Of a stretch of 33,753 nucleotides of DNA, positions 1 to 33,753 are shown piece after piece. Below the pieces are notes generated by a model, which made no database searches, was not told the DNA's origin, and saw nothing but the letters and a program-made list of their open reading frames with translations. The position numbers and the translations under genes were made by a program. The stretch spans positions 1 to 33,753 of IMG/VR virus record IMGVR_UViG_3300042922_000557, one strand, 5' to 3'. Origin of the DNA: a virus. How positions within the stretch are numbered: position 1 is the stretch's first letter; every line of letters starts with the position of its first letter.

Positions 1-63
1 ATGCAGCGAAGCTCAGAAACGACGCTTTTCAGTAGCAATAGCAGTACCCGTAGTAACCAGTAA
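1..63 (+). CDS. cpxP: CpxP, C-terminal 20 codons (host gene, partial)
   Basis: The window opens in frame with codons reading MQRSSETTLFSSNSSTRSNQ and then TAA at 61-63. This serine/asparagine-rich tail resembles the end of enterobacterial CpxP, the periplasmic Cpx-pathway inhibitor and chaperone (E. coli CpxP, from memory, ends in SSSNSRSQ). The call is strengthened by what follows: the next 60 bases look like CpxQ, which is made from the cpxP 3'UTR. The 5' part of the gene lies outside the window. It is chromosomal host DNA flanking the prophage on the attL side. Confidence 0.8.
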   Translation: MQRSSETTLFSSNSSTRSNQ

Positions 64-85
64 ACCCTGTTTTCCTTGCCATAGA

Positions 86-127
86 CACCATCCCTGTCTT
101 CCCCCACATGATGTGGGGGTTTTTTTT
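86..127. other. attL core (42-bp direct repeat)
   Basis: A 42-bp stretch, CACCATCCCTGTCTTC through the terminator hairpin and T8, is repeated exactly at 33712-33753 in the same orientation. The two copies bracket int and the whole phage gene set, as expected of the core duplicated by tyrosine-recombinase integration. To the left is host cpxP; to the right is the phage arm. From memory, the P2 relative WPhi also integrates in the cpxP-fieF intergenic region. Confidence 0.88.
101..127 (+). terminator. Rho-independent terminator of cpxP/CpxQ, within attL
   Basis: CCCCCACAT (101-109) pairs with ATGTGGGGG (111-119), in practice a 7-bp stem around a 5-nt loop, followed by eight T (120-127). It ends cpxP/CpxQ transcription just before the convergent int gene. 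An identical copy lies at the right end of the window within attR. Confidence 0.85.
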
Positions 128-237: not shown

Positions 238-1218
238 TCACACCGCCAACCCGCCGCCGAGAGGGTTTAACGTTACTGCGTGTTGCAGGTAATCAGGTGC
301 AAGGTGAGCATAAACCATCGTCTGTTGTATGCTGGCGTGCCCCAGAATTTGCTGTAACGCAATAATGTTCCCCCCGTTCATCATGAACCAGCTTGCAAAT
401 GTATGCCGAAGCACATGCGTGGCCTGCCCGCGTGGTAAATCGGGCTTAACCTGTCTGAGCCGTTCGCAGAAGTTTTCATAGTCAACTTTGAACAGTGGCC
501 CGGTGTCGCTGGTTTTGATCTCTTTCTCCAGTTCTTCCGATATCGGAACCGTGCGCTTTTTCCCGTTTTTGGTCTTAAGAAACGTCACACGCCCGTGATT
601 TACCTGCTCGCCTCGCAGCGTGCTACCTTCGCCCCAGCGTGCGCCGGTGCTTAGGCATAACAGTGCTACGCGTCGATCGTCGCCGGTCAGAGTATCCAGC
701 AATCTGCTGATCTCTGATTTGGCGAGGTAGGTCATGGCTGGCGGTGCTTCTTTCAGTGGTTCCAGACCCTTGCAGGGGTTTTCCTTCCTGAACTCTTCCA
801 GCTTTATCAACGTGCTGAACATCCCGGACAAGCGGTAAATATCCCGGTTGATCGTTGCTGCGCTGATACCGTCTTCCAGCCGTTGGCTTCGATGCTGTGC
901 AATCATTCGCTTGTTCAGTCGGTTAACGGCTGGATCACCCAGCGCCCTGATTGTTTTATTCAGATGCCGTTTTTCAATCTCGCCATTTTCCTGAGTCTGT
1001 CCATACAGCAGCCACCAGGTATCTAACAACTCGCTTAAGGTGCGGCGGTCAACGCTCGCGCCCAGCCATTCTTTTTTATCGGCGTTGGCTAATACATAAC
1101 GCTCAAAAAGAACTGCCTCTTGTTTCTTCTCAAATCGCCTGCGAATACGTTTTCCGTTACGTCCGCGCGGCCATACGTCTACTTCATATTGACCACCTTC
1201 GAGCTTCTTAATCGACAT
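238..1218 (-). CDS. int: Tyrosine-recombinase integrase
   Basis: This 326-residue protein catalyses integration and excision between attP and attB; P2 Int is about 337 residues. An N-terminal arm-binding region (about 1-60) precedes a SAM-like core-binding domain (about 60-155) and the catalytic domain. The catalytic set is visible: R194 (in TGARWGE), H268 and R271 (in HVLRHTF), H294 (in LGHAS) and nucleophile Y303 (in MVYAHL). The ATG at 1218 is preceded by GGAGGG with a 7-nt gap. It lies next to attL and is transcribed toward it, the standard P2 arrangement. Its specificity for the CpxQ 3' end is inferred from the att repeat. Confidence 0.95.
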   Translation of the reverse strand: MSIKKLEGGQYEVDVWPRGRNGKRIRRRFEKKQEAVLFERYVLANADKKEWLGASVDRRTLSELLDTWWLLYGQTQENGEIEKRHLNKTIRALGDPAVNRLNKRMIAQHRSQRLEDGISAATINRDIYRLSGMFSTLIKLEEFRKENPCKGLEPLKEAPPAMTYLAKSEISRLLDTLTGDDRRVALLCLSTGARWGEGSTLRGEQVNHGRVTFLKTKNGKKRTVPISEELEKEIKTSDTGPLFKVDYENFCERLRQVKPDLPRGQATHVLRHTFASWFMMNGGNIIALQQILGHASIQQTMVYAHLAPDYLQHAVTLNPLGGGLAV

Positions 1219-1287: not shown

Positions 1288-1587
1288 TTAACCAGTTTGT
1301 TTCTCGGAGTGGCCTGATTCCGTTGACTCTGGCCCAATGTGTGCGAGAGCCGGTGCGATTTGACCAGCTTGCGGGGCGGTCTTATCAGTCATTAGCCAAA
1401 GTGTGTACTTTTCAAATAGTGGGTGTTGGGTGAGTTTCATTAGTGTTGTCCAGCCTGGTTCGTTATATCCCCCCTCTAATTTTTTCAATGTACTAATGGG
1501 TATCTCCATGATTTTGCAAAATTGATTCTGGCTGAGTCCTTCAGCAGTTCGAATCGCCTTTATTTTTTCAGATACGATCATTGACAT
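1288..1587 (-). CDS. C: Immunity repressor C (P2 C-like)
   Basis: The protein is 99 residues, the same length as P2 C as I remember it, with an N-terminal helix-turn-helix (about 18-42, LSQNQFCKIMEIPISTLKKL). Its C-terminal half contains KYTLWLMTDKTAPQAGQIAP and ALAHIGPE, strongly resembling the end of P2 C. It should bind as a dimer upstream and shut off early lytic transcription. Downstream on the same strand is int. The region just upstream (1587-1649) holds operator-like inverted repeats, one overlapping the start codon, which suggests autoregulation. The start has only a weak Shine-Dalgarno; MIV two codons later is an alternative. Confidence 0.9.
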   Translation of the reverse strand: MSMIVSEKIKAIRTAEGLSQNQFCKIMEIPISTLKKLEGGYNEPGWTTLMKLTQHPLFEKYTLWLMTDKTAPQAGQIAPALAHIGPESTESGHSEKQTG

Positions 1588-5194: not shown

Positions 5195-6300
5195 CCGCCT
5201 ACTACAACGAAATCGATCCCTTCGCCGCGCAATGGCTGCGCAACCTGATCGACGCTGGGCACATCGCCCCGGGCGTCGTTGACACTCGCTCAATTGAGGA
5301 AGTAACCGCAAATGACCTTAAAGGATTCACGCAATGCCACTTCTTTGCCGGGATCGGCGTGTGGTCTTACGCCCTGCGCCGCGCAGGATGGCCCGATGAT
5401 CGCCCGGTCTGGACAGGTTCATGCCCCTGCCAGCCTTTCAGCGCCTGCGGAAAGCGACAGGGATTTGACGATCCCCGCCATCATTGGCCCTCATGGGTTC
5501 ACCTTATTAAGGAGTGCGCGCCTCACGTTGTCTTTGGGGAACAGGTTGCAAGCAAAGACGGCCTCGCATGGCTCGACGCTGTACAGGCTGATCTGGAAAA
5601 CGCGGATTATGCCTTCGCAGGTTTCGATCTCTGCGCTGCGGGCTTCGGTGCCCCGCACATCCGCCAGCGCCTCTTCTGGGTGGCCGACGCCGACAGCGAA
5701 TTCATGGAAGCATCCATCGAATGCGGGCAGGGAGGGAGGATTGAACTTGCAGACAGCGGCAGTCTTATCGGGGTGGACTACGCCAAGTGCGAGCGACGGA
5801 ACGCGGGGTGGAACCGGGATTACTCCGGGCATGTCCGGCAGCAGTCTGGCGCAATTAGTGAAGCTGGCAGGTTGGCCGATACCAGTAGCGACGGACGGGA
5901 AGGGCGGTTATCAGGGCGGGAGAGTTCGCAACGGGAAGTTATCAACGGATCGGCTGGATGTAACGGCGCAGCTTGCGGGATGGCCCACGCCGAACACCTG
6001 CAACGACAGAAACCCGCGTCAGCAGGATGCCTTGATGAATTACCGGGAAAACGGAACCAAGATTCAGAAGCGATTGCAGGATTTGGCGGCAATAGCGGAA
6101 CCAATGCGGTTAACGGTTTCTGGGGATCTGCTGACTGGCTTTTCTGCCGGGATGGAAAGTGGAGGCCAGTTAAACCCGGAATTAGCCCTTTGGTTGATGG
6201 GGTTGCCGGACGGGTGGGCCAGCTGCGCGCCTACGGTAATGCCATCGTTGCGCCGGTCGCGGAAGCGTTCATAGCTGCATATCTGGATTGTGCGCAATGA
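5191..6300 (+). CDS. C5-cytosine DNA methyltransferase
   Basis: The 369-residue protein (GTG start, overlapping the previous TGA) has the C5-MTase motif series. Motif I is FFAGIG (51-56), motif IV SCPCQPFS with catalytic C80, motif VI GEQV with E117 (usually ENV), motif VIII IRQRLFW (Q159-R-L), and motif X RAYGNAIV (N350). It should methylate cytosine at C5; the target is unknown. Between motifs VIII and X the reading is Gly/Ser/Asp-rich with repeated ADADS, ADTSS and AHAEH elements typical of this phage subfamily. The +1 frame is open across the same stretch (separate entry). It overlaps gene A by 4 bp. Confidence 0.88.
   Translation: MTAYYNEIDPFAAQWLRNLIDAGHIAPGVVDTRSIEEVTANDLKGFTQCHFFAGIGVWSYALRRAGWPDDRPVWTGSCPCQPFSACGKRQGFDDPRHHWPSWVHLIKECAPHVVFGEQVASKDGLAWLDAVQADLENADYAFAGFDLCAAGFGAPHIRQRLFWVADADSEFMEASIECGQGGRIELADSGSLIGVDYAKCERRNAGWNRDYSGHVRQQSGAISEAGRLADTSSDGREGRLSGRESSQREVINGSAGCNGAACGMAHAEHLQRQKPASAGCLDELPGKRNQDSEAIAGFGGNSGTNAVNGFWGSADWLFCRDGKWRPVKPGISPLVDGVAGRVGQLRAYGNAIVAPVAEAFIAAYLDCAQ
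5678..6274 (+). other. Second coding-like frame inside the cytosine methyltransferase gene
   Basis: The +1 frame is open from at least 5312 to 6274. From about 5678 it reads four spaced units of the type GW(P/T)xP: GWPTPTANSW, GWTTPSASDG, GWPIPVATDG and GWPTPNTCND. It ends with GGQLNPELALWLMGLPDGW, which resembles C5-MTase motif IX (RLQGFPDxW), then a basic tail. I remember very similar peptides annotated in other phage genomes, as well as the main-frame version. Possible explanations are overprinting or a frameshift product. No clear slippery site was identified and no ribosome site is obvious for a separate start. Confidence 0.4.
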
Positions 6301-8681
6301 CCACGGCAACCCGTGGCCGTCGCGCCCCTTCTCCACCTCCACCGTATCCGGGTAGCACCGACAATGCTATCCCTTACGCTTATGGCGGGAACAAACCATA
6401 CCAGCCGGTTGGCGTTGATGTAGCGCCGGGGCTGGATGGTTTCGACTATCTCACGCCGGACGGCACGCGTAAGCATATTGCGTTCAGTGAACTGGTAGCG
6501 GAGGACGAAAAGCCGGAACGCAGTAAGCTGCTGCGTCGCCGTCTGGCTTCTCTTCCGCAGTATGTCCGCCGCCACTTTGCCGCGAAGCTTGATGCGCTGG
6601 ATGCGAAAGACCGCAAAGCAGCAGATCACTGGCTGCTTAACACCTTTGAGCGCCACGTATTAGCGCGTATTGATGGCGTGAACAGTGTTTACCAGCCTGA
6701 TACTGTGATGCCCGGCATTCTGCTGCCAATTCGCGATCAGCTTTTCCGTATGCTCTGGGCAGGGAAAAAAGAGTTAAAAAGACTGGCTTATACGCTTGCC
6801 GATATCTTTACGAGCGAGTTTATACGCGAGTCCGATCACCAGTTGGCGCGCACCGGCGATCCTGAGTTCGCGGCGCTTTCTGGCTATGGACGTATTGCGT
6901 CGCTGGCGGTGCATCTGAAAACGCCGATCCCCGGTTGGACAGCGTATTGCAATGAAGAACTTGAAGCGGAGGACGCGTTACGCGCGGTTCTTCGTCTTGA
7001 GTCACCGCAGTGGTGGTTAAACCGCCTGCGCCGTATCCATGCCCGATGGCGTGAGCATTTGATGATCGCAGCGGGATACGTCCAGAAAAAATCCTCCCCA
7101 TACAGTAGCGCCCCTTGCCTTACGGAATGGCTGGCCCAGAAAAAGGCTAATCGTGAATACCTTAAGGCTATGGAACTGGAAGACCAGGACACGGGCGAGC
7201 GTATTTCACTGATCGATAAAGTCGCCGGCAGCGTTGCCAATCCGGCCAACCGTCGCCGCGAACTCATGACGAGGATGCGCGGATTTGAAGAACTGGCGAA
7301 GCTGGAAGGGTTGGCCGGTGACTTCTATACGCTGACAGCGCCTTCCCGTTACCACTCCATGCAGCATAACGGGCGCCGCAATAATAAATACTGTGGCGCG
7401 TCGCCACGCGAGACGCAGCAATATCTTTGCAAAGTTTGGGCGAGAACTCGCGCCGCGTGGAAGCGTGCCGGAATACGCGTCTTTGGTTTTCGTGTCGTTG
7501 AGCCGCACCATGATGCAACGCCGCACTGGCACTTACTGTTGTTTATGCATCCATGCGATATCGATCAGGCCCGCGATATTTTTTGCTATCACGCCCGGCG
7601 TGAAGATTCAGCAGAGTTAAAAGGCTCGGAGGCCATGAACCGGGCGCGTTTTCACGTTGAACCGATTGATCCGGCTAAAGGGTCTGCAACGGGATACATC
7701 GCGAAATACATTTCGAAGAATATCGACGGCTTCGCGCTGGATGGAGAAAAGGACGACGAAACCGGGGAAGACCTGAAGGAAATGTCCAGGCGCGTTAGCG
7801 CGTGGGCGTCGCGCTGGGCAATTCGCCAGTTTCAGCAGATCGGCGGTGCGCCGGTCACGGTATATCGCGAACTTCGCCGCCTGGGCAATCGTGAACTTGT
7901 TTTACACCCTGAACTGGAAACCGCACGGCAAGCCGCTGATGCAGGCGAGTGGGATAACTACGTATTAGCCCAGGGTGGCCCGTTGGTTGAGCGCGATAAT
8001 CTGCGTATCCGTCTGAACTATGAAACCACTGAAAACGGCAACGCCTACGGCGATGACGTCCAGCGAATCACCGGTATCTATTGCCCGATTACGGGCAATG
8101 ACTCTTTGATCTTCACCCGCACCACTCAATACAAAATCGTGCCGAAGCGCCAGAGCGCTGACGGTTTGGCCGTTGACGTTGGTTTTTCAGGCGGCATCGC
8201 CGCCCCTCGGAGTTCTGTCAATAACTGTACGCGGGATCCCGCGGCAGGTGCTGACGGTCTTGAACATGCCGATCATGAAGTGAGTGAGACGGTGAATTTT
8301 GATGCGCTTTCCCGGCAGGGAAAGAGGGAACTGGCGCAGAGGTTGAAAGAGGACTTGAAGCGAACTCGTAAGAAACTGTCACATCAACGGCAAGAAGGGT
8401 CTGGGCTGTCAATCAAAGAGAAACATATTCATGAGCTTCTTTCTTTACGCGGAGTTGATGCAAGCGCTGCAATGGTCAGATCGCTAATTGCTGGTTCATC
8501 TTTAGCCTGTGGGGATCAGGTAATGAGCGTAAGCAATGGGAAGTTAAAATCAAGTAGTCGCGCTGGTGCAGGAATAGGCATGCTGCCGACACAAGTGAAG
8601 GAGATAAAAGATAAAACTGTAGAACTTATCAATCGTTGGAAACGAGTATTGGCAGTATGTTCGAGTAAACTTACTGGATAG
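6297..8681 (+). CDS. A: Replication gene A protein (rolling-circle HUH endonuclease)
   Basis: The 794-residue protein matches the P2 A family (P2 A about 761). It nicks the phage origin, which in P2 lies within the A gene, and stays covalently attached during rolling-circle replication. The metal-binding HUH motif is PHW with H410 and H412 (ATPHWHLLLF). The catalytic tyrosine pair is Y467 and Y471 (GYIAKYISKN), equivalent to the P2 pair at 450/454. The ATG at 6297 overlaps the previous TGA (ATGA) and has no good Shine-Dalgarno, so translation is probably coupled. The final 100 residues look more AT-rich and divergent than the rest. P2's separate B (helicase loader) is not visible here. Confidence 0.93.
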   Translation: MTTATRGRRAPSPPPPYPGSTDNAIPYAYGGNKPYQPVGVDVAPGLDGFDYLTPDGTRKHIAFSELVAEDEKPERSKLLRRRLASLPQYVRRHFAAKLDALDAKDRKAADHWLLNTFERHVLARIDGVNSVYQPDTVMPGILLPIRDQLFRMLWAGKKELKRLAYTLADIFTSEFIRESDHQLARTGDPEFAALSGYGRIASLAVHLKTPIPGWTAYCNEELEAEDALRAVLRLESPQWWLNRLRRIHARWREHLMIAAGYVQKKSSPYSSAPCLTEWLAQKKANREYLKAMELEDQDTGERISLIDKVAGSVANPANRRRELMTRMRGFEELAKLEGLAGDFYTLTAPSRYHSMQHNGRRNNKYCGASPRETQQYLCKVWARTRAAWKRAGIRVFGFRVVEPHHDATPHWHLLLFMHPCDIDQARDIFCYHARREDSAELKGSEAMNRARFHVEPIDPAKGSATGYIAKYISKNIDGFALDGEKDDETGEDLKEMSRRVSAWASRWAIRQFQQIGGAPVTVYRELRRLGNRELVLHPELETARQAADAGEWDNYVLAQGGPLVERDNLRIRLNYETTENGNAYGDDVQRITGIYCPITGNDSLIFTRTTQYKIVPKRQSADGLAVDVGFSGGIAAPRSSVNNCTRDPAAGADGLEHADHEVSETVNFDALSRQGKRELAQRLKEDLKRTRKKLSHQRQEGSGLSIKEKHIHELLSLRGVDASAAMVRSLIAGSSLACGDQVMSVSNGKLKSSSRAGAGIGMLPTQVKEIKDKTVELINRWKRVLAVCSSKLTG

Positions 8682-8818: not shown

Positions 8819-9901
8819 ATGGTAAATGTGCGGGAGGATGAACTTTTCAAACTCATCGAGCAAGGCATCAAAGGCAACGCAAATGCATTTACACTCCTAT
8901 GCAGAAAGATGATTAACAACATCCGTAAAAATGATGAGACCTTAGCTTCTAAGCTGGCTTCGTTAGTTGCTGAGGGAACAGTATTGCGTGGGGCATCTAG
9001 TAATGCTCCTATGCCTGTGGATGGAGACTCCAGACGAAACCTTTTGCAGGAAACATCTGTCAACGCAATTGTTGAAGAACCTGTATGGAATTCGGATATC
9101 TCAAAGAAGCTGGAGTCAATTGTTAACGAAAGAGAGAATGCAGTTTCTTTGTTCAAAGCCGGTCTTGAACCTGTAAAAACGGTTTTACTTTCTGGCCCGC
9201 CAGGCGTAGGCAAAACAATGTCCGCACATTGGCTTGCTGCAAAGTTAAATTTACCTCTTTTAACATTGGATCTCTCATCTGTAATGAGTTCTCTTTTGGG
9301 AAAAACAGGCAATAATATTAAATCCGTTATGGATTATGCCAAAGAGAAACCATGTGTCCTTTTGCTTGATGAATTTGATGCTGTTGCAAAAAGACGTGAT
9401 GATGACAGGGACGTTGGAGAATTAAAACGTTTAGTTACTGTACTCCTACAGACCATAGATGAATGGCCAGCGACCTCGCTTCTTGTTGCTGCGACTAATC
9501 ACCCTGATATCTTAGATCCGGCTGTTTGGCGTCGATTTGAGCATATCCTTAAATTTAATATGCCATCAGTAGAACTGATAGATAGATATTTAGTTAATCA
9601 TGATATTGAGCCTGAATTATCTAAAAAACTTGCACCATTATTAGATGGCATGTCCTTTGCCATTATTAACCGTATTTTGAATTTCTCCAAAAAGAATGAA
9701 GTGCTTAGAAATGTTCCATTTGAAAGTTCATTAATAGAGGCCGTAGTTACGGAGAGGGTTTCATTGGATGATTTTAGTGATAATGATCTCAATATAATTA
9801 AATATCATTTTGACGGTATTTCAAATAGGAAGATAGCTGAATTAGTTGGTGTTTCACATCCAACAATCGCGAATAAATTACAAAAGTGGGGGGTTAAATG
9901 A
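8819..9901 (+). CDS. ietA: AAA+ ATPase of an IetAS-like anti-phage cassette
   Basis: The 360-residue protein has an N-terminal helical region (about 1-90) and a classical AAA+ module. Walker A is GPPGVGKT (126-133), Walker B VLLLDEFD (D184, E185), sensor-1 N227 (AATNH), and the arginine-finger region WRRFE (R238/R239). A C-terminal helix-turn-helix (about 330-358, ISNRKIAELVGVSHPTIANK) is joined on. It overlaps the following subtilisin-like protease gene by 4 bp. The pair, an ATPase plus S8 protease, is the IetAS architecture reported among defence systems by Gao and colleagues in 2020; identity to that family is inferred from architecture. GGGGG sits 5 nt before the ATG. Visibly AT-richer than flanking phage genes, indicating separate acquisition. 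Confidence 0.72.
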   Translation: MVNVREDELFKLIEQGIKGNANAFTLLCRKMINNIRKNDETLASKLASLVAEGTVLRGASSNAPMPVDGDSRRNLLQETSVNAIVEEPVWNSDISKKLESIVNERENAVSLFKAGLEPVKTVLLSGPPGVGKTMSAHWLAAKLNLPLLTLDLSSVMSSLLGKTGNNIKSVMDYAKEKPCVLLLDEFDAVAKRRDDDRDVGELKRLVTVLLQTIDEWPATSLLVAATNHPDILDPAVWRRFEHILKFNMPSVELIDRYLVNHDIEPELSKKLAPLLDGMSFAIINRILNFSKKNEVLRNVPFESSLIEAVVTERVSLDDFSDNDLNIIKYHFDGISNRKIAELVGVSHPTIANKLQKWGVK

Positions 9902-12102
9902 TGGAAAGGAACTTACTTTTAGGTAACGGTCATGTTCTAACAAAAAAGGAACCTTTACCTAAAGGAAGGGATGGTAAGCGCTATCCCTATACTCTTGAAG
10001 AAGTAAGGGAGCATTTAAACCCCGAGATTGATACTTTACTCTCACGCTTTCGCAGTTTGGATGATGCGGCTAAGCCAAGGGGTGAGAGTGTATTCAATTT
10101 AACTTTACACCCAGCGTTTTTAGGTAAAAGCTACTTTCCTGAAGGGTTGCTTAGAGCGACAGGTTTACGGGATGTCGGTAGCCGTCAGGTAATCATTCGC
10201 CCACGGAAAGCGGCGCGTCAGTGCGATCAGAATAAGGACTTAGTAACGGCGCAACTGTTTGTCAGCGGTGATGATGATGCCGTTATAAGATTTAAGGAAA
10301 TTTTAAATTCCCCTACAGCTCCGAAGGGCGTACAAAAGGATTTGATCGAAATTGAAAGTGTTAGCTTTTTTGAAGGAAAAGAGAGAGCACGCAATTTTGA
10401 GCATGCGAAAAGTGATTTGATAAAATTTGAAGTGGTTCTTCATGCTGGGGTTGAAGACGATGATATCGTTAAAGCCTATATTAAATATGCGGCACAATAT
10501 GGCGTCTCTGTTGATTACAAAAGTAAAATTCAAGTTGGTGGGCTGACTTTCATCGTTGCACACGCACGACCTGAAGATATGAAAAAAACCCTCGATTTTT
10601 CATTAATCCGCGTTGTGCGGCCGATGCCGTCTCTAAGGTGTACTCAGCCGAACATTGTCAGAAAGTTATCTAATATAGTTACACCGGAGTTCCCTAATTC
10701 TAAAGCTGTTCTTGAATCCGAACGTATTGCAATTTTTGACGGTGGCTTGGGGACAGCTGACTTAAGTAATTGGGTTACGGAATACGTGTATCCAGACACC
10801 AAAGAGACAAGCGGATTATTATTGCAGCACGGTAATGAAGTAACATCAACTTTCTTATTCGGACGTGTCGAGGAAAATGCACCTTCTTTTGAAAGACCGT
10901 TTATGAATGTTGATCATTATAGAGTTCTTTCACCAACATCAGGTGACAATGGCGATTGGGATTTGTTTGATGTCCTTAAGAAAATTCAGTCCGTTCTTGA
11001 TAGTGGTGACTATAAGTTCGCTAATCTAAGTATTGGTCCTCATCTTCCAATTGGCGATGATGAGGTTCATGCATGGACTGCTGTTTTAGACCAAATCTGT
11101 GCTAAGCATGGGATATTACTTACTGTTGCTGTTGGGAATGATGGTCATGAGGACGGTGATGCAGCGAGAATACAACCTCCTTCCGATATGGTAAACGCGC
11201 TAGCGATTGGTGCTGCTGATCGTAGCGGTGAAAAATGGGGGCGGGCACCATATAGCTGTATTGGCCCTGGCAGAAGCCCCGGATTCGTTAAACCTGATGG
11301 TGTTATTTTTGGTGGAAGCGACGACGAGCCTTTTTACACTTACAACCCGCTGCTTGGTTCTATAGTCGGAGTTCAAGGAACCAGTTATGCCTCTCCATTA
11401 GCATTGAGAACGGCCGCTGGAGTTGCGGCTCTATCAGGAACCCCATTGAACACCATTGCATTGAAAGCGTTGCTTGTTCATCATGCTGAAACATCAAGAA
11501 AATATTCGCGTGAACATATCGGTTGGGGACGGTTTAGTGAAGATCCTAACGTTTTAATCGATTGTGCGAATGATACTGCTACAGTAATTTACTATGGTTC
11601 ATTAGCAAAAAATAAATATTTAAGGGCACCGATCCCATTCCCCGATGTTCCCTTTGACGAAGCATTTGAGCTTACCGCTACTTTATGCATTCAAACCCCA
11701 GTTGATCCTGAACATTCAGTAAACTATACAAGGGCCGGTATGCAGGTAACTTTCCGTCCAAGATTCGGCCTTGACGATGCCGATACTGATGATTTCTTTG
11801 GTCAAAAAAGCCAGTATAAGACCGAAAGGGAGTGTAGGAGTGAAGGTCATAAGTGGGAAACTTGCTTGCACAGAAGCAAAAAATTCAGTGCTGATACATT
11901 ATTAAGCGATCCAGTTTTTGATATACGGTATCACGCCCGAGATTCTTCGCGCCATGTTAAGGGGGTTTCAGCCCCTGATATGCAATATGCGATGGTAATA
12001 AGCGTAAGGGTAAAAGACTTTGATTTATATAATGTTATTCGCCAGCGATATACAATTCTAAATCCTATTCAACTGCGCACACAGATTTCTCTCGACACGT
12101 AA
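9898..12102 (+). CDS. ietS: Subtilisin-like (S8) serine protease of an IetAS-like cassette
   Basis: The 734-residue protein has an uncharacterised N-terminal region (about 1-270). The S8 peptidase domain follows, with catalytic D281 (IFDGGL), H311 (LQHGNEV), oxyanion N in AVGNDGHEDGD and nucleophile S496 (QGTSYASP). A C-terminal region (about 560-734) contains two Cys within RECRSEGHKWETCLH. No signal peptide is visible, so it should act in the cytoplasm, presumably gated by the partner ATPase. The start ATGATG follows a GGGGGG ribosome site and overlaps the ATPase stop. It sits between A and the packaging genes, the slot that holds tin and old in P2. What it cleaves cannot be read from sequence. 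Confidence 0.75.
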   Translation: MMERNLLLGNGHVLTKKEPLPKGRDGKRYPYTLEEVREHLNPEIDTLLSRFRSLDDAAKPRGESVFNLTLHPAFLGKSYFPEGLLRATGLRDVGSRQVIIRPRKAARQCDQNKDLVTAQLFVSGDDDAVIRFKEILNSPTAPKGVQKDLIEIESVSFFEGKERARNFEHAKSDLIKFEVVLHAGVEDDDIVKAYIKYAAQYGVSVDYKSKIQVGGLTFIVAHARPEDMKKTLDFSLIRVVRPMPSLRCTQPNIVRKLSNIVTPEFPNSKAVLESERIAIFDGGLGTADLSNWVTEYVYPDTKETSGLLLQHGNEVTSTFLFGRVEENAPSFERPFMNVDHYRVLSPTSGDNGDWDLFDVLKKIQSVLDSGDYKFANLSIGPHLPIGDDEVHAWTAVLDQICAKHGILLTVAVGNDGHEDGDAARIQPPSDMVNALAIGAADRSGEKWGRAPYSCIGPGRSPGFVKPDGVIFGGSDDEPFYTYNPLLGSIVGVQGTSYASPLALRTAAGVAALSGTPLNTIALKALLVHHAETSRKYSREHIGWGRFSEDPNVLIDCANDTATVIYYGSLAKNKYLRAPIPFPDVPFDEAFELTATLCIQTPVDPEHSVNYTRAGMQVTFRPRFGLDDADTDDFFGQKSQYKTERECRSEGHKWETCLHRSKKFSADTLLSDPVFDIRYHARDSSRHVKGVSAPDMQYAMVISVRVKDFDLYNVIRQRYTILNPIQLRTQISLDT

Positions 12103-32527: not shown

Positions 32528-32566
32528 AATGAAATGGAGTTCAACTCCCACAGGGGAGCCATCATT

Positions 32567-32815
32567 ATGTTCAGATGTCCATTTTGCGGCGCTATGGCCC
32601 GCACCCGTACCAGCCGTAAAATAACCGATATGACGATCCGTCAATATCACCAGTGTCAGAATCTGGAATGTAGCCGGTCATTCACCACGCTAAACAGCGT
32701 GGAAAGGGAAGTAACAAAACGCGCAGGTGTTGCACCGCTACCGCCTGACTTCATCCCTCGCGATGCCTTCCCGGCGTCCCACTATGGAAGGGATCAGTTA
32801 AATCTTGCGTTATAA
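32567..32815 (+). CDS. ogr: Late transcription activator Ogr/Delta
   Basis: The 82-residue zinc-finger protein has Cys at 4, 7, 30 and 35 (CPFC and CQNLEC), the CX2C-X22-CX4C pattern of Ogr/Delta. It contacts the alpha subunit of RNA polymerase and activates late promoters carrying TGT-N12-ACA-type sites, here the P/O and FI/D sites. ATG 32567 has GGGGAG upstream. The gene has its own space 39 bp after D and is followed by a strong terminator. Confidence 0.95.
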   Translation: MFRCPFCGAMARTRTSRKITDMTIRQYHQCQNLECSRSFTTLNSVEREVTKRAGVAPLPPDFIPRDAFPASHYGRDQLNLAL

Positions 32816-32820
32816 AAGAA

Positions 32821-32844
32821 CCCCGCGATTATCGCGGGGTTTTG
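32821..32844. terminator. Bidirectional terminator after ogr
   Basis: CCCCGCGA (32821-32828) pairs with TCGCGGGG (32832-32839), with flanking AA and TTTTGTTTT, so it can stop ogr rightward and the convergent moron leftward. Confidence 0.92.
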
Positions 32845-32846
32845 TT

Positions 32847-33539
32847 TTATCGTAAGTATTCGACAATATGGCCGGTTTTCAAATCGACTTTAGCGGATAA
32901 CTGGTTTTTTACCGTTGCGCCATAACTATTGGCACCTTGAAAAGTGGTTGTGACAATGGCGTAAGGTGCTGCACCATCAAGGATAAACCTATACTTAGTT
33001 TCTAAGTGTTTGAAAGATGATGGATCGTTCATGTCGTCTTTTATTGCAGCAATAAGCGGTTGGTATGAGCTATCAAACAATCTGACATTACTTCTGAAAA
33101 CGTCAAAATCTACCATCTTGGCTAAAGAAGACGGATCCTTCTGATAATCTTGCTTACACCAATCAAGTGCCTCGGAAGCCTTGATATCATCATTTTTCGT
33201 ATATGAGTGCTGGCTAATACATTTGTAAAAATCGGTTGATGTGCTTAGAGATAAGCCAGCTTGAGATAAATAGCTTTCAATAATTTTAGAGCGTTCATCT
33301 TTATCTAAGCTTCGCCATTGCTTGAGTGAGGTGTTTTTGTAGTTAGACGATGTATCATTTGGTGCCTTTGGTATATAAGAGCACGCCTTTGGAATCACCC
33401 CCAAAATTACTATGAGAACAGCCAGGGCAGCTAAAGGGTGCCACCATCGATCCCCTGGTTTTTTAACATCACAATACGGGCATTTTTTTTCTTTACGAGC
33501 GACTTCACTCCCGCACTTCCTGCATGTAGTCATTGTCAT
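32847..33539 (-). CDS. Zinc-ribbon membrane-anchored moron, unknown function
   Basis: The 230-residue protein has an N-terminal zinc ribbon (C6, C9, C20, C23), a single membrane helix (about 35-50, PLAALAVLIVILGVIP) and a 175-residue polar, probably periplasmic, domain with two Cys (YKCISQHS, LDWCKQDY). AAAGGAG lies 8 nt before ATG 33539. It is AT-richer than the late genes, leftward and sealed by terminators on both sides. It lies beside attR, so it is a likely lysogenic-conversion gene expressed from the prophage. No family recognised beyond the zinc ribbon. Confidence 0.78.
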   Translation of the reverse strand: MTMTTCRKCGSEVARKEKKCPYCDVKKPGDRWWHPLAALAVLIVILGVIPKACSYIPKAPNDTSSNYKNTSLKQWRSLDKDERSKIIESYLSQAGLSLSTSTDFYKCISQHSYTKNDDIKASEALDWCKQDYQKDPSSLAKMVDFDVFRSNVRLFDSSYQPLIAAIKDDMNDPSSFKHLETKYRFILDGAAPYAIVTTTFQGANSYGATVKNQLSAKVDLKTGHIVEYLR

Positions 33540-33711: not shown

Positions 33712-33753
33712 CACCATCCCTGTCTTCCCCCACATGATGTGGGGGTTTTTTTT
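33712..33753. other. attR core (second copy of the 42-bp repeat)
   Basis: This is an exact copy of 86-127, ending with the hairpin and eight T at the last base of the window. Host DNA should follow. It lacks the CpxQ 5' third (bases 70-85 equivalent), which is replaced by phage sequence ending GGATTCCTT. Confidence 0.88.

Follow-up and report, generated by a model that had tools for sequence, protein, structure and literature searches.

A P2-like prophage in the CpxQ small RNA gene, with a terminator that is probably phage-derived

Known integration sites at the 3′ ends of RNA genes

In phages that restore the 3′ ends of tRNA and tmRNA genes, the att core is located at the 3′ end of the RNA gene and the missing end is supplied by the phage. 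The CpxQ site described here is similar in both respects, although the RNA concerned is not a folded tRNA but an sRNA that lies, with its terminator, in the 3′ UTR of a protein-coding mRNA.

A few sRNA genes are known to be used in a comparable way. For instance, PhiW104 integrates at ryeA/ryeB in Salmonella, and its att site is formed by the last 23 bp of the sRNA gene (Balbontin et al. 2008, as reported in PMC7380047). As in the CpxQ phage, the att site is at the terminator end of the sRNA gene; by contrast, RyeB stands free as an sRNA and has an antisense partner, the expression of which changes, whereas CpxQ is cut from the 3′ UTR of an mRNA. The 27-nt core of P2 corresponds exactly to the last 27 nt of CyaR, another Hfq-dependent sRNA, but its orientation relative to int is opposite to that in the CpxQ phage, and the two integrases are only 52% identical. 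Finally, the rybB ncRNA is a phage insertion site (PMC3032704), and a P2/186-like element located there retains, like the CpxQ phage, a complete sRNA at attL. Unlike at CpxQ, however, the shared stretch is only 14 nt long (ATGGGTTTTTTGTT) and forms the extreme 3′ end of RybB; the terminator stem of RybB remains its own, and the integrase is 42% identical. The CpxQ case is well supported and is of the same kind as these three, which were chosen because they were already known and thus illustrate a pattern, not a rate.

The CpxQ site itself has been described under other names. WPhi1 sits at cpxP-fieF in E. coli W (PMC3032704), and the Salmonella Pullorum prophage phiSPU4 occupies the same site, given as yiiP-cpxP (PMC6449608). 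The attP sequences of WPhi, of Enterobacter phage phiT5282H and of Salmonella phage SEN4 have the same core as the DNA analysed here, except that SEN4 lacks one G and has an additional T. WPhi (Peduovirus) therefore shares with our element both the host site and the 42-nt attP core, and their integrases are 67.5% identical; nevertheless, ours is a different P2-like phage, in another enterobacterium. In the attP of phage Chuche, no CpxQ, CyaR or RybB core was seen by eye. The literature searched contained no report of the overlap between the cpxP-fieF phage site and CpxQ, and no publication that joins CpxQ, CyaR and RybB to P2-like att sites as such. Thus, the site is already known, while its overlap with CpxQ and the swap of terminators appear not to have been described previously.

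The att repeat, CpxQ and the class of the element

The window, that is, the whole stretch of DNA analysed, corresponds to a provirus record in IMG/VR; it has 33,753 bases, the last of which is the end of the second copy of a repeat. This exact 42-nt pair is the sole direct repeat of at least 25 nt in the window, and about 3e-17 such pairs would be expected by chance in 33.7 kb by simple counting. The features that surround its two copies are as follows.

1..63, plus strand: 3′ end of the host gene cpxP (final 20 codons with the stop); the homologous cpxP end is seen in L086 and L087, two relatives whose site is uninterrupted, and in the arrangement of K-12
70..127, plus strand: CpxQ sRNA, complete, at attL; 57/58 nt identical to K-12 cpxQ, with hairpin and T8
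70..85, plus strand: 5′ part of CpxQ that comes from the host only and is not included in the att core; seen at attL and replaced by phage sequence at attR
86..127, plus strand: attL copy of the 42-bp repeat, CpxQ nt 17-58, found by repeat search
101..127, plus strand: CpxQ intrinsic terminator (from folding and relatives), which is probably phage-derived in the lysogen, as judged from relatives
33712..33753, plus strand: second copy of the repeat (42 bp, attR), CpxQ nt 17-58; preceded by the phage left arm, without cpxP and without the 5′ seed

A preliminary description of this DNA had placed a prophage in the CpxQ gene, with an att core that coincides with the distal part of the sRNA and its terminator, an intact cpxP-CpxQ unit at attL and a truncated copy at attR; on each of these points it proved correct. 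CpxQ starts 7 nt past the cpxP stop and ends at 127, well beyond the start of the repeat at 86, and it has the features of the 58-nt cpxP 3′ UTR with terminator that is annotated in K-12 (b4716, NC_000913.3 4106330-4106387). The sole mismatch to this reference is one loop base, ATGATG in the window versus ATGCTG in K-12, and the fold consists of a hairpin at 101-119 followed by T8. The host-only segment 70..85 includes the 5′ seed, known as R1. At attR, the first 16 nt of CpxQ are replaced by the phage sequence GGCCGGATTCCTT.

The identity of CpxQ is further clarified by Rfam, whose scan of the window produced a single match, Hrs1 (RF02628), on the minus strand at 54-127, and did not match CpxQ itself. 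A match of this kind might be taken as an antisense RNA, a candidate that was rejected because the source paper locates hrs1 between cpxP and fieF and on their strand (PMC4070566). Consequently, Hrs1 and CpxQ are the same RNA, and the strand of the Rfam model appears to be reversed. CpxQ accumulates in an Hfq-dependent manner and is released by RNase E (PMC9438474), and Erwinia Hrs1 falls to 14-21% in an hfq mutant (PMC4070566).

The prophage genes that indicate the class of the element, and the terminator that follows the last of them, are these.

238..1218, minus strand: tyrosine integrase of 326 aa (phrog_1/PF00589), 67.5% identical to WPhi Int and 52% to P2 Int
1288..1587, minus strand: C-type immunity repressor (phrog_147)
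6288..8681, plus strand: P2 A-like replication nicking protein (phrog_91)
32534..32815, plus strand: Ogr-like late activator (phrog_603)
32817..32843, plus strand: predicted terminator after ogr, which would shield attR from late transcription

As all four Peduoviridae markers, P2-type integrase, C repressor, A nickase and Ogr, are present, the element is, by its gene content, a P2-like temperate phage (Peduoviridae). The gene order, attL-int-C ... D-ogr-attR, was also found when the open reading frames were compared with the EcPF16 and JNE120442 prophages. In addition, the prophage carries at 8819-12102 an AAA ATPase and a subtilase that match the IetA/IetS anti-phage defence (PADLOC E 1.9e-88 and 1.4e-41). 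Between ogr and attR there is a minus-strand gene (32847-33539) with a match to phrog_3403 and none in Pfam or PADLOC, and near it, at 33633-33605, a minus-strand site that resembles a terminator.

Empty sites, frequency and the place of strand exchange

The uninterrupted site is found in the two genomes closest to the host flank of the window (L086 and L087; 127 nt compared), where a 98% match to window positions 1-127, with cpxP before it, is followed directly by fieF. The comparison with an empty attB that the preliminary description had proposed thus shows the expected arrangement; as the record comprises only the provirus and ends at 33753, fieF beyond attR is known from these relatives. 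In E. coli, where 5,426 complete genomes were surveyed and the locus was present in 5,375, the site is uninterrupted in 4545/5375 and interrupted in 830/5375 (~15%), the latter number being an upper limit for prophages. Among the cases examined, the interruptions are chiefly P2-like prophages, and a WPhi-type left arm is joined to the core in 784 E. coli genomes. The rybB locus is interrupted, whatever the insert, in 1,185/5,372 E. coli, which is likewise an upper limit: at rybB of strain UCPROB-001, the insert proved to be small and non-P2. At CpxQ, the corresponding case is E. coli GN02461, where the interruption turned out to be IS200C (positions 1-757 of locus L190), inserted right at the CpxQ T-run and leaving CpxQ complete.

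Other arrangements were also observed at this site. In E. coli K_EC180, a P2-like prophage has had most of its structural genes deleted, with both att junctions and CpxQ intact. Tandem prophage pairs occur in Kosakonia oryziphila (L077/L082) and Trabulsiella guamensis (L079/L083), where the right arm of a further WPhi-like phage comes after the second core. A further genome (G286, locus L236) has two complete copies of CpxQ separated by about 4.1 kb (953 and 5081 on the reverse complement). A cpxP-like tail accompanies both copies, and phage tail-fibre-like ORFs lie between and after them; this may be either a duplication or an effect of the assembly.

As the two core copies of the window are identical, the origin of its CpxQ 3′ end from the phage is judged from related lysogens. 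One marker in these is the terminator loop, which is GCTG in K-12-type hosts and GATG in the phage. In lysogen ESY002, GATG is found at attL and GCTG at attR. More generally, the GCTG loop is on the fieF side in 1087 of the 1088 GCTG genomes and is beside the tested phage right arm in none of them, which places the exchange 5′ of core nt 26. Two different hairpins, both fully paired, are found in Rosenbergiella metrosideri: CCCCTCA/TGAGGGG at attL and CCCCGCA/TGCGGGG at attR. The attL of T. guamensis has CACCATCCCTGT followed by an unrelated hairpin, ATCCCCGAATGATTCGGGGAT, with a T-run of its own, while the left-arm junction of the phage, which is on another contig, has the sequence CGCCATCCCTGTC (CGCC); in a Serratia remnant, too, this second position is C on the phage side. 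From these observations we infer the following interval.

88..97, plus strand: interval of strand exchange, core nt 3-12, CCATCCCTGT, from the markers that related lysogens have at core nt 2, 13 and 26

Exchange would thus take place within core nt 3-12 provided that the markers were not mutated later, with a left boundary given by two sites, T. guamensis (junctions on different contigs) and the Serratia remnant. With this segregation of markers, the sRNA 3′ end in the related lysogens is phage-derived, and CpxQ 3′ of about core nt 12, terminator included, would be phage DNA in the lysogen. Of the 42 nt, the integrase probably needs a much shorter core.

Phage-borne terminators and alternative readings

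The terminators carried by the phages were compared at 76 sites with a phage right arm, some of which are counted in more than one locus. Among these there are 18 distinct versions of core plus hairpin, all of which fold into a hairpin before the T-run, and one of these phage-borne terminators is unrelated to any host version seen. In the small set of five versions that are in register, 100% of the cells are paired and two pairs are changed on both sides, a covariation score reached by 1 of 500 shuffles, in a control that ignores relatedness. Hairpins that are paired yet variable support the view that the phage replaces the CpxQ 3′ end. Host hairpins also vary across the family, while CCTTGCCATAGACACCATCCCTGT is invariant among the matches listed, in a search whose pattern itself required it; it is exact in 173/295 genomes, small endosymbiont genomes included. 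A constant CCTTGCCATAGACACCATCCCTGT beside variable host hairpins would explain where the exchange region is located. Because host hairpins vary, some of the phage-borne ones may be of host origin; some are in fact identical to host hairpins, and homologous recombination could have brought them in. The preliminary description had also likened this integration to the restoration of tRNA 3′ ends, which the phage-derived CpxQ terminator in related lysogens bears out, and it had proposed selection to preserve CpxQ. The latter idea is partly upheld: retained pairing is consistent with selection to keep the CpxQ 3′ end working, and covariation among the phage-borne terminators argues for it, but part of the variation may have been captured from different hosts.

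The geometry of the insertion, the empty sites, the segregation of markers and the paired phage-borne hairpins can all be seen in the sequences themselves. In the mechanism that best accounts for them, the tyrosine integrase would insert the P2-like phage into CpxQ, in the 3′ UTR of cpxP, with exchange in the invariant part of the sRNA. The upstream part of CpxQ would remain connected with cpxP and the cpxP promoter, and a new hairpin and T-run would come with the phage right arm, so that a complete CpxQ with a phage-derived terminator is restored, presumably made at a normal level, with selection likely maintaining the phage-borne hairpin. As CCATCCCTGT is constant among hosts whose CpxQ hairpins vary, the site could serve a phage with its own terminator in many genera, with no loss of the sRNA. 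We give this reading, together with an attR copy that is most likely silent, a probability of roughly 0.88.

It is possible, though doubtful, that the site is used merely as a conserved intergenic terminator with a dyad that suits the integrase, the intact CpxQ being an unselected by-product. Any core at the 3′ end of a gene would leave that gene complete, the opposite orientation of the P2 core at CyaR suggests that terminator dyads as such may suit integrases, and IS200C has entered the same T-run in GN02461. Against this, the exchange maps to the seed-side sequence and not to the dyad, and the phage-borne hairpins remain paired while they vary, even to the point of being unrelated to the host versions seen.

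Two other readings concern transcription of the junctions. The int gene is directed at CpxQ, its stop is 110 nt away, and on its strand a terminator-like site was not found between int and CpxQ; an int transcript could thus run on through these 110 nt and yield an antisense RNA that lowers CpxQ. This seems quite improbable, as the inverted repeat CCTTCTTG/CAAGAAGG in the same interval could end such a transcript. A decoy or regulator transcribed from the phage side, with the second seed only, was rejected as very improbable: the attR/attP copy does keep CACCATCCCTGT, the hairpin and the T-run, but a terminator lies after ogr in the window and likewise in P2 (annotated) and WPhi (by sequence), no convincing promoter was found in the window between that terminator and attR, and the attR fold is no better than that of shuffled sequence (z -0.48). 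The attR copy, which has neither cpxP nor the RNase E site, starts only at CpxQ nt 17 and is located behind phage terminators, is most likely silent.

In the Cpx response to inner-membrane stress, CpxQ forms the non-coding arm. If an interruption of the site is present in about 15% of E. coli, mostly by prophages that replace the 3′ end, lysogeny would touch a core regulator, and CpxQ in these strains would be part phage. The use of one integrase across many genera would also be explained, as only the invariant seed-side sequence is needed and the phage brings its own terminator. This natural series of terminator swaps on one sRNA would be useful for the study of the requirements of Hfq and of termination. 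More tentatively, the 3′ ends of Hfq-dependent sRNAs (CpxQ, CyaR and RybB) may have been taken up repeatedly as sites by P2-like integrases, in which case lysogeny would re-terminate core stress sRNAs: for CpxQ, approximately 1 in 7 E. coli strains would have a phage-encoded 3′ end, and the level of the sRNA or its Hfq binding may change.
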